Part shown: positions 5,090-48,133 of the stretch, one piece after another
Numbering within the stretch: position 1 is the stretch's first letter
Layout: each line of letters starts with the position of its first letter
Assembly: GCF_024436055.1 (NCBI RefSeq)
Contig: NZ_JANFNH010000006.1
Span: 62,001 to 126,000 of the forward strand
DNA: 64,000 nucleotides
Reading direction: 5' to 3'
Source: Streptantibioticus rubrisoli
Lineage (GTDB): Bacteria > Actinomycetota > Actinomycetes > Streptomycetales > Streptomycetaceae
The notes under the pieces: model-generated
Told to the model about the DNA's origin: nothing
Database searches by the model: none
Seen by the model: only the letters and a program-made list of their open reading frames with translations
Position numbers and translations under genes: made by a program

Positions 5090-5115
5090 GGAATGCCAAG
5101 ACCGGGTAAAATGTT
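5090..5115 (+). promoter_or_regulatory. SigR-type promoter (GGAAT-N18-GTT) of the antiporter gene
   Basis: GGAAT at 5090-5094 and GTT at 5113-5115 are separated by exactly 18 bases, matching the known consensus of SigR, the streptomycete sigma factor for thiol-oxidative stress. The start of transcription would fall near 5122, about 64 bases before the proposed CTG start of the antiporter. It lies in the divergent gap with the acylase gene. Confidence 0.62.
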
Positions 5116-8261: not shown

Positions 8262-8324
8262 CGGACCGCCCGGACGGGGCATGCGGTGCCGGGTGTGACA
8301 CGGCTCGCGGTGGACTGAAGCGGC

Positions 8325-8350
8325 GGAATGCTGCACTATGGAGCGTTGTT
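8325..8350 (+). promoter_or_regulatory. SigR-type promoter (GGAAT-N18-GTT) of the Ruc-like gene
   Basis: GGAAT at 8325-8329 and GTT at 8348-8350 are spaced by exactly 18 bases, the SigR consensus. The -10-like GTT overlaps the first bases of the CIRCE operator, so HrcA bound to CIRCE would block this promoter. A vegetative-type promoter (TGGACT at 8311, 17 bases, CACTAT at 8334) overlaps the same place and is an alternative reading. Confidence 0.62.
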
Positions 8351-8375
8351 AGCACTCATTGAGTGAGAGTGCCAG
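8349..8375. promoter_or_regulatory. CIRCE element (HrcA operator)
   Basis: TTAGCACTC at 8349-8357, a 9-base spacer, and GAGTGCCAG at 8367-8375. The left arm is a perfect copy of the CIRCE consensus TTAGCACTC-N9-GAGTGCTAA, and the right arm matches 7 of 9. It overlaps the ribosome binding site AGGAGGA of the next gene and the predicted transcription start. CIRCE is the operator of the heat-shock repressor HrcA. Confidence 0.85.
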
Positions 8376-8384
8376 GAGGAGCAA

Positions 8385-8684
8385 GTGCCGACCTACCAGT
8401 ACCAGTGCACCGAGTGCGGCGAGCCACTAGAGGCCGTGCAGAAGTTCAGCGACGAGGCGCTCACCGAGTGCCCGAGCTGCCAGGGCAGGCTGCGCAAGGT
8501 GTTCTCCGCGGTCGGTGTCGTCTTCAAGGGCTCCGGCTTCTACCGGACCGACAGCCGCGGCACCTCGTCCAGCAGCAGCCCGGCGAAGTCGTCCTCGAAC
8601 GGCTCGGAGGCCAAGTCCTCCGGCGGCTCGGAGTCGAAGTCGTCCACCAGCACGGCGACCGCCTCCAGCACCCCGGCCGCCTGA
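8385..8684 (+). CDS. FmdB-family zinc-ribbon protein, probable redox-regulated chaperone (Ruc-like)
   Basis: A 99-residue protein with an N-terminal zinc ribbon (Cys8-x2-Cys11 and Cys29-x2-Cys32) followed by a low-complexity tail made mostly of Ser, Lys, Gly and Thr (residues 55-99). This matches the layout of M. tuberculosis Rv0991c (Ruc), a chaperone that prevents protein aggregation when its cysteines are oxidised. The control region agrees: a CIRCE heat-shock operator and a SigR-type oxidative-stress promoter lie directly upstream. The GTG at 8385 follows AGGAGGA. Most databases would label it only as an FmdB-family regulator; the chaperone role is inferred from architecture, promoter and synteny. 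Confidence 0.82.
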   Translation: MPTYQYQCTECGEPLEAVQKFSDEALTECPSCQGRLRKVFSAVGVVFKGSGFYRTDSRGTSSSSSPAKSSSNGSEAKSSGGSESKSSTSTATASSTPAA

Positions 8685-8718
8685 CCCGACGGGGCCGCAC
8701 ACCTTACGTCTCGCGTAC

Positions 8719-8748
8719 GGACCCCACCGAAGCACTCCGGTGGGGTCC
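8719..8748 (+). terminator. Terminator hairpin after the Ruc-like gene
   Basis: A perfect 11-bp stem (GGACCCCACCG at 8719-8729 with CGGTGGGGTCC at 8738-8748) with an 8-base loop lies 35 bases after the stop codon. No T-tract follows. It isolates the ruc-like gene from the phosphorylase gene, which starts at 8780. Confidence 0.8.
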
Positions 8749-8779
8749 TCGCCATGCCCGGCCGGGCTAGGGTGACGGC

Positions 8780-45769: not shown

Positions 45770-45795
45770 GGAATACCCCTAGGGGGTATAAGGTT
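45770..45795 (+). promoter_or_regulatory. SigR-type promoter containing a CsoR-type copper operator
   Basis: GGAAT at 45770-45774 and GTT at 45793-45795 are 18 bases apart, the SigR pattern. Most of the spacer is the palindrome ATACCCC-TA-GGGGGTAT (45773-45789), the well-known type of CsoR operator in copper genes. A bound CsoR would cover the promoter. It lies 50 bases upstream of the copper ATPase start. Confidence 0.72.
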
Positions 45796-45844: not shown

Positions 45845-48133
45845 ATGACCACCCCACCCGCCGCGACCCCGACCACGGCGTCGGCCCCCGCCACGGCCCC
45901 CGGCACAGCGGGAGCCGCCGAGGCCGAGCTGGAGATCGGGGGGATGACCTGCGCGTCGTGCGCCGCCCGCATCGAGAAGAAGCTCAACCGGATGGACGGC
46001 GTCACCGCCACCGTCAACTACGCCACCGAGCGGGCCAAGGTCAGCTACGGCCCCGGCCTCACCGTCGCCGACCTCATCGCCACCGTGGAGGCCACCGGCT
46101 ACACCGCCGCCCTCCCCGCGCCACCCGCGGCGGAAGCTGACCAGCCCACCGCCGACGAGGCCCCGGACGAGCTGGCCGTACTGCGCCAACGGCTGCTCAC
46201 CGCCGTCGTGCTCGCCGTACCGGTGATCGCCATGGCGATGGTCCCTGCACTGCAGTTCCGCGACTGGCAGTGGCTCTCCCTCACCCTCACCGCGCCCGTG
46301 GTCGTCTACGCCGCCTGGCCGTTCCACCGGGCCGCCTGGACGAATCTGCGCCACGGCGCGGCGACGATGGACACGCTGATCTCGATGGGGACGCTGGCGG
46401 CGTTCGGCTGGTCGCTGTGGGCGCTGTTCTTCGGGGACGCCGGAATGCCGGGCATGAAGCACTCCTTCGAGCTGTCGATCTCCCGCACCGATGGTGGCGG
46501 GAACATCTATCTGGAGGCAGCGGCCGGGGTGACCGCGTTCATCTTGGCCGGACGGTACTTCGAGGCGCGCTCCAAGCGGCGCGCGGGCGCAGCGCTGCGC
46601 GCCCTGCTGCACCTGGGCGCCAAGGACGTGGCGGTGCTGCGCGGTGACCGTGAAGTGCGCGTACCCGTCGCGGAGTTGGCGGTCGGCGACCGGTTCGTGG
46701 TGCGTCCCGGGGAGAAGATCGCCACCGACGGTGTGGTGGTGGACGGCACTTCGGCGGTGGACGCCTCGATGCTCACCGGTGAGTCGGTGCCCGTCGAGGT
46801 GGCACCCGGCGCCACGGTCGCCGGCGCCACGGTGAACGCGGGCGGCCGGATCGTCGTCGAGGCCACCCGGATCGGCGCGGACACCCAACTGGCCAGAATG
46901 GCGAGGCTGGTTGAGGAGGCGCAGAACGGCAAGGCGGCGGCCCAGCGGCTCGCTGACCGGATCTCGGCGGTCTTCGTGCCCGCCGTCATCACCCTGGCGC
47001 TGGCCACCCTCGGCTACTGGCTGATCGCCGGTGCGGGCGCCGCCGCGGCGTTCACCGCGGCCGTCGCCGTACTGATCATCGCCTGCCCTTGCGCGCTGGG
47101 TCTGGCGACGCCGACCGCGCTGATGGTGGGCACCGGACGCGGCGCCCAGCTCGGCATCCTGATCAAGGGGCCGGAAGTGCTGGAGACCACCCGTGAGGTG
47201 GACACCATCGTGCTGGACAAGACCGGCACGGTGACCAGCGGCGTGATGGCACTCACCGACATCGTGACCGCCGACGGCGTGGACGCGGACCGTACGCTGC
47301 GGCTGGCGGGCGCCCTGGAGCACGCGGCCGAGCACCCGATCGCCAAGGCCATCGCCCGCGCCGCCGAGGAGCGCACCGGTCCGCTGCCCACCCCCACCGA
47401 GTTCACCGCCGTACCGGGCGTGGGCGTGCGCGGTGTGGTCGACGGACACACCGTCACCGTCGGCCGCGCCGACACCCCGCTGCCCGCCGAACTGCGTGAC
47501 GCCAAGGAGCGCGCGGAGGCCGCCGGTCGCACCGCCGTCGTCGTCACCGACGGCGGCCGACCGAGCGCCGTGCTGGTGGTCGCCGACACCGTCAAGCCCA
47601 CCAGCGCCGAGGCGGTACGGCGGCTGCGCGAGCTGGGGCTGACGCCGGTACTGCTGACCGGGGACAACCAGCGGGCCGCCCGGGCGGTCGCCGCCGAGGT
47701 CGGCATCGCCGCCGACCAGGTGATCGCCGAGGTCATGCCGGAGGACAAGGTCGAGGTCATCAGACGGTTGCAGCGTACGGGACGCAGCGTCGCGATGGTC
47801 GGTGACGGCGTCAACGACGCGGCCGCGCTTGCCCAGTCGGACCTGGGCCTGGCCATGGGCACCGGCACCGACGCGGCCATCGAGGCCGGTGATCTGACCC
47901 TGGTGCGCGGCGACCTACGGGTCGCGGCGGACGCCATCCGGCTGGCCCGGCGCACCCTCGGCACCATCAGGGCCAATCTGTGCTGGGCCTTCGGCTACAA
48001 CGTGGCCGCGCTGCCGCTGGCCGCGGCCGGACTGCTCAACCCGATGATCGCGGGCGCCGCGATGGCGTTCTCCTCGGTCTTCGTGGTGGGCAACAGCCTG
48101 CGGCTGCGAAACTTCCGGCCGGTGGACCGGTGA
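45845..48133 (+). CDS. copA: Copper-exporting P1B-type ATPase
   Basis: A 762-residue membrane pump that exports Cu(I) at the cost of ATP. One N-terminal metal-binding domain has GMTCASC (Cys36, Cys39); about eight membrane helices follow, with the ion site Cys414-Pro-Cys416 in [16 protein letters not shown]. The phosphorylated Asp458 is in DKTGT; TGES, the HP of EHPIAKA and [10 protein letters not shown] are present. The ATG at 45845 follows GGGAGTGA. Control by a CsoR-type repressor is likely from the upstream operator. No csoR or copZ gene lies beside it. Start and class are clear; copper rather than silver is inferred. Confidence 0.94.

Follow-up and report, generated by a model that had tools for sequence, protein, structure and literature searches.

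A CIRCE operator, a SigR-type promoter motif and a putative housekeeping promoter upstream of a ruc/fmdB-type gene in Streptomycetaceae

A small zinc-ribbon gene of Streptantibioticus rubrisoli is preceded by two regulatory motifs that run into each other, a GGAAT-N18-GTT box of the SigR type and a CIRCE operator. This raises the question of whether the gene is controlled by heat and thiol stress together, and whether its product is a chaperone. The window analysed is the whole stretch of 64,000 nucleotides around the gene. The sequence elements, their conservation, the presence of hrcA and sigR-rsrA in the genome and the orthology of the gene were observed directly (Table 1). The best overall explanation is a Ruc-type redox chaperone whose gene would be driven by two nested promoters under one HrcA/CIRCE site, and its probability is put at about 0.74.

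Table 1. Positions of the features discussed (numbered in the window unless a contig is named)
Feature	Position	Strand	Remarks
TGGACT, putative housekeeping (HrdB-type) -35	8311-8316	+	invariant block
GGAAT, SigR-type -35	8325-8329	+	next base a purine in every distinct composite
CACTAT, putative housekeeping -10 (CANNAT)	8334-8339	+	17 nt after TGGACT
GTT, SigR-type -10	8348-8350	+	TT common to CIRCE
CIRCE operator (HrcA site), TTAGCACTC-ATTGAGTGA-GAGTGCCAG	8349-8375	+	0 expected in shuffles
ruc/fmdB-type gene	8385-8684	+	99 aa, GTG start, Cys8/11/29/32 zinc ribbon, Ser-rich tail
SGFY motif SGFYRTDSR (residues 50-58)	8532-8558	+	invariant SGFY...D(S)
Hairpin, 11 bp, GGACCCCACCG-loop-CGGTGGGGTCC	8719-8748	+	3' of the stop codon, without a clear T run
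FmdB-type paralogue of the same genome (L128)	C28:21756-21899	-	Cys-rich-tail family, no CIRCE

The CIRCE operator and the SigR-type promoter

The CIRCE operator that a first-pass annotation had described at this locus is present (TTAGCACTCATTGAGTGAGAGTGCCAG). It differs from the perfect 9+9 repeat (TTAGCACTC-N9-GAGTGCTAA) by two mismatches, and no such match is expected in shuffles of the window. The start codon lies nine bases past its end, and the last AG of the operator forms part of the ribosome binding site AGGAGG (8374-8379). When up to three mismatches were allowed, only three loci in the genome carried CIRCE, with two copies before groES, two before groEL2 and one before the ruc/fmdB-type gene. 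The genome also encodes HrcA (334.8 bits in the profile search, over the cut-off). The hairpin that CIRCE could form in the transcript was not exceptional in a fold test (z -1.1), and for this reason no RNA-level role of CIRCE is claimed.

Across the actinomycetes, CIRCE with at most four mismatches was found before 130 of 138 orthologue loci, a set that includes some close relatives, and before 48 of 55 when the genomes were drawn evenly over the class. None of 14 FmdB paralogues, the one in the same genome included, was preceded by CIRCE; the best candidates had 7-10 mismatches.

Two side observations concern loci without the operator. A second FmdB-type family of actinomycetes (L155-L168) has a Cys-rich tail with CCGGGCC-like ends and no CIRCE. 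The few orthologues lacking CIRCE include L098, L101, L109, L114, L116, L122 and L140, and five of them come from genomes of only 1.3-1.7 Mb; the pattern suggests that HrcA control of ruc may have been lost with genome reduction.

The GGAAT-N18-GTT box is likewise found at 8325-8350 (GGAATGCTGCACTATGGAGCGTTGTT). By itself this motif is weak evidence, being common by chance: it occurs five times in the window against 0.39 expected, and 77 times in the whole genome against about 45 expected from base composition. The significance of the SigR box/CIRCE composite therefore lies in its conservation within the family and not in the motif count. The exact composite, GGAAT-N18-GTTAGCACTC-N9-GAGTGCCA, occurs in 163 of 200 Streptomycetaceae genomes and the reversed control in none, so that both motifs are kept letter-perfect in these relatives. 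The two T's at 8349-8350, in which the first-pass annotation had seen the box and CIRCE overlap, belong to this conserved arrangement. Its attribution to streptomycetes can be upheld for the Streptomycetaceae; the source genus is represented by only three species in the collection. Among 21 Streptomycetaceae loci, 15 carried the strict SigR box (0.04 in shuffles), and the others had GAAAT or AGAAT in register.

As the TT of GTT belongs to CIRCE as well and is constrained by it, the independent evidence for SigR is limited to GGAAT, the purine that follows it and the C/G before TT. A purine follows GGAAT in every distinct composite compared, and SigH is reported to prefer GGAAYR (PMC4803200). 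C precedes GTT in 19 of the 21 distinct composites. The base before CIRCE is by definition G in composites; of 59 loci lacking the composite, 43 have A at this position. Because the conserved purine and G lie outside both the housekeeping hexamers described below and CIRCE, they speak for a real SigR promoter. RsrA was found in the genome (100.3 bits in the profile search), with the SigR gene adjoining. Sequence and comparative evidence thus support both CIRCE and the SigR-type promoter as genuine.

Outside the Streptomycetaceae, the strict SigR box was detected at 21 of 109 orthologue loci (0.32 in shuffles), and the other 88 carried CIRCE without it. In Actinomadura and Spirillospora the box and CIRCE are 16 nt apart, in Nonomuraea 4 nt, with the box upstream in each case; in Nocardia and Rhodococcus the overlap is again two bases. 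The composite was also found in 48 of 121 genomes of the family of a genome with a similar composite; as one sequence is the same as in R. spongiicola (L088), this would be the Rhodococcus family. Most of these composites read GTTGGCACT, with the same 2-bp overlap, and in one genus of this family the sites abut (GTTCTAGCACT). By this comparison, nearly all orthologues share the CIRCE layer, the SigR box being lineage-specific, and the 2-bp overlap recurs in two distant families; both points are new here.

Three further GGAAT-N18-GTT sites in the window were noted. One is on the minus strand (11450-11425), about 100 nt upstream of the gene for an HrdD-like sigma factor of the principal type (start 11318, minus). 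In S. coelicolor, hrdD is among the known targets of SigR (PMC9205884), so this site serves as an internal positive control. Another, at 45770-45795, falls on a CsoR-like palindrome, ATACCCCTAGGGGGTAT (45773-45789), and precedes the gene for a copper P-type ATPase (45845-48133); a nearly identical sequence, GGAATACCCGTGGGGGGTATAGGGTT, is located elsewhere in the genome (C26:24927). A copper operator may lie within a SigR-type promoter here, or else the match arises by chance from the operator's own sequence. The third (5090-5115) is found just where a potassium/proton antiporter gene (NF003716) begins.

A third conserved element enclosing the SigR -35

The SigR promoter had been named as the target of HrcA in the first-pass annotation. 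That promoter is genuine, but the account was incomplete, as a conserved element, TGGACT-N17-CANNAT, had been missed. Of the 163 Streptomycetaceae genomes with the composite, 162 have TGGACT 7-10 nt before GGAAT, and the block is present in all but one (TGGACG) of the 25 distinct aligned sequences. In the family alignment it stands eight or nine bases before GGAAT, and CANNAT follows it after 17 or 18 bases. The relaxed pattern T(T/G)GACN-N17/18-(C/T)ANNNT was matched at 21 of 21 Streptomycetaceae loci, ending 9-10 nt before CIRCE (0.13 in shuffles), and at 35 of 109 loci of other families (0.61 in shuffles). At 30 of those 35 loci the -10 ends on the T with which CIRCE begins. The Streptomycetaceae have about ten more bases between the -10 and CIRCE, a gap occupied by the SigR -10. 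A strict sigma-70 consensus scan of the region found no promoter; TGGACT-N17-CACTAT departs from TTGACA/TATAAT. On its simplest reading the element, which is also new here, is probably a housekeeping promoter, and the SigR -35 lies within it. An added housekeeping promoter layer at ruc is thus likely, and the SigR promoter is probably not the only one capped by HrcA.

A different role for TGGACT would be as the site of an additional regulator instead of a -35, which is compatible with control by SigR and HrcA. Within the family the block varies hardly more than CIRCE does, which exceeds the conservation expected of a housekeeping -35, and it keeps an almost constant distance from GGAAT. However, that distance shifts by one base in about ten genomes, and other families also have a TGGAC-N17/18-(C/T)ANNNT pair with promoter-like spacing whose position relative to CIRCE changes. 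An additional regulator is therefore regarded as unlikely.

It is more doubtful still that only CIRCE is functional and the SigR box incidental, which would leave an HrcA-repressed heat-shock gene with TGGACT-N17-CANNAT as its sole promoter. The many orthologues with CIRCE and no strict box (88 of 109), the frequency of GGAAT-N18-GTT by chance and the abutment of the housekeeping-type element on CIRCE, with the first CIRCE base shared at 30 of all 109 loci, would fit such a gene. Against it, GGAAT is kept in register with GTT in 163 of 200 family genomes, and the constant purine after GGAAT and the C before GTT (19 of 21) fall where no constraint is expected in a housekeeping spacer or downstream of it. 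SigH control has also been published for M. tuberculosis ruc (PMC7448276).

The zinc-ribbon protein and its kinship with Ruc

The gene directly after both sites, which starts with GTG at 8385, encodes a CxxC...CxxC zinc ribbon as had been claimed. In profile searches its product matched PF09723 (Zn_ribbon_8, 6.8e-16) and TIGR02605 (CxxC_CxxC_SSSS, 4.4e-21), both over the cut-off. Its cysteines are at positions 8, 11, 29 and 32. The tail (residues 59-99) had been called Ser/Lys-rich; it is Ser-rich, with 18 Ser, 6 Ala and 5 Thr in 41 residues, but the 3 Lys do not make it strongly Lys-rich. The AlphaFold model was of low confidence (mean pLDDT 59.3) and contained no secondary structure past residue 40. 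Searches with the protein gave no useful match among solved structures, and a search of a plasmid collection gave no match. Downstream of the gene, the fold of 8700-8765, which covers the 3' hairpin, reached -31.8 kcal/mol (z -3.7). A strict terminator scan did not find this hairpin. It is likely a terminator, and it suggests that the gene is a monocistronic unit.

The likeness to M. tuberculosis Ruc (Rv0991c) put forward earlier is borne out. The four cysteine positions are identical, and the stretches MPTY.YxCTxC, D(D/E)ALTxCxxCxGRLRK(V/L)F and AVGVVFKG match Ruc fragments translated from primers published in PMC7448276. The 99-aa product is thus very likely a relative or orthologue of Ruc. 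In Ruc, zinc is bound by C8/C11/C29/C32 and the tail is hydrophilic and variable; the oxidised protein blocks luciferase aggregation, and this chaperone activity depends on oxidation (PMC7448276).

An alignment of 20 actinomycete orthologues revealed a set of invariant residues, namely F47, K48, G49, S50, G51, F52, Y53, D56 and S57. The published inactive truncation of Ruc (RucNterm) comprises residues 1-49 and ends at VVFKG (PMC7448276). From its relatives we infer that M. tuberculosis Ruc also has SGFY, in which case the truncation would have taken away SGFY...DS along with the disordered tail. Since both are gone from RucNterm, the published conclusion that the disordered tail is needed does not separate it from SGFY...DS. 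The published truncation therefore leaves open which of the two serves chaperone activity, and a specific motif can now be pointed out.

The FmdB family was named after a putative regulator of formamidase. Given this name and the many functions that zinc ribbons serve, the protein might be a stress-induced FmdB-type regulator or metal-handling ribbon with no chaperone activity, but this is improbable, since the neighbours with profile matches in the window are an MFS transporter, MTA phosphorylase and MscL, with no formamidase (fmdA) among them, groES and groEL2 share the CIRCE wiring with the gene, a separate FmdB paralogue in the genome lacks CIRCE, and Ruc, with the same cysteine positions, has demonstrated holdase activity.

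Proposed working of the locus and comparison with known systems

For a Ruc-type chaperone under two nested promoters, occupancy, start sites, induction by heat and diamide and chaperone activity in streptomycetes can be predicted as follows. The housekeeping-type promoter TGGACT-N17-CACTAT would start transcription at about 8346-8348 and the SigR promoter at 8356-8360, that is, at or within the single CIRCE. HrcA on its site (8349-8375) would lie over or directly beside each start and keep both promoters off at normal temperature. Heat or protein misfolding would release HrcA, and thiol oxidation would free SigR from RsrA. Full output would need both the loss of HrcA and SigR, and diamide alone would have little effect unless HrcA is lost too. 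The zinc-bound protein is probably inactive, and oxidation of its four cysteines would turn it into an ATP-independent holdase.

HrcA keeps Ruc low in M. tuberculosis at 37 C; the level is high in an hrcA mutant, where heat raises it further, an increase that the authors credit to SigH (PMC7448276). It is from this HrcA/SigH logic that a weak response to diamide alone is predicted here while HrcA stays. For M. tuberculosis ruc, repression by HrcA, induction by SigH and the overlap of their sites have all been published, as has the proposal that HrcA and the sigma factor compete (PMC7448276). The central idea of the first-pass annotation, dual control with HrcA blocking an overlapping promoter, was thus a correct transfer but not a new mechanism. 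A literature search, with the subscription SigR-regulon literature outside its scope, found neither a Streptomyces description of HrcA/SigR-type ruc wiring nor expression or binding data for the streptomycete gene.

A more far-reaching proposal is tentative and itself rather doubtful. It holds that ruc control in actinomycetes may go back to an old HrcA-capped housekeeping promoter, to which several lineages independently added a SigR/SigH promoter, so that heat and disulfide stress would feed an AND-type gate. The essential element of the chaperone may, on this view, be SGFY...DS and not the Ser-rich tail. Through the comparison, wiring known from a single pathogen is extended to an entire class of soil bacteria that includes tractable laboratory strains, and a compact natural example is gained in which two sigma factors and one repressor share about 65 bp. 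Both the gate logic and the active element of the chaperone family become directly testable in a non-pathogen.

Among known systems, the S. coelicolor SigR regulon shares the GGAAT-N18-GTT promoter with this locus. Hsp33 is alike by analogy through Ruc, in that oxidation of a four-cysteine zinc switch turns a holdase on, but a sequence relation between Hsp33 and Ruc is not reported (PMC7448276). The direct HrcA targets in M. tuberculosis are the Hsp60/Hsp10 genes and ruc (PMC7448276), so that operator and genome-wide target set are the same as here; within this genome, groES and groEL2 have tandem CIRCE pairs, whereas ruc has a single copy. The closest system is M. tuberculosis ruc. There, too, the HrcA operator overlaps an ECF promoter of the SigH/SigR type, groES/groEL are co-regulated, and the protein combines a Cys8/11/29/32 zinc ribbon with a hydrophilic tail. 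Holdase activity has been shown for Ruc and is predicted for the streptomycete protein. The conserved housekeeping-type element around the SigR -35 and the extension of CIRCE into the ribosome binding site were seen here as differences from M. tuberculosis ruc. A second start site lies 19 nt upstream in M. tuberculosis (PMC7448276), and given this site two promoters may operate there as well.
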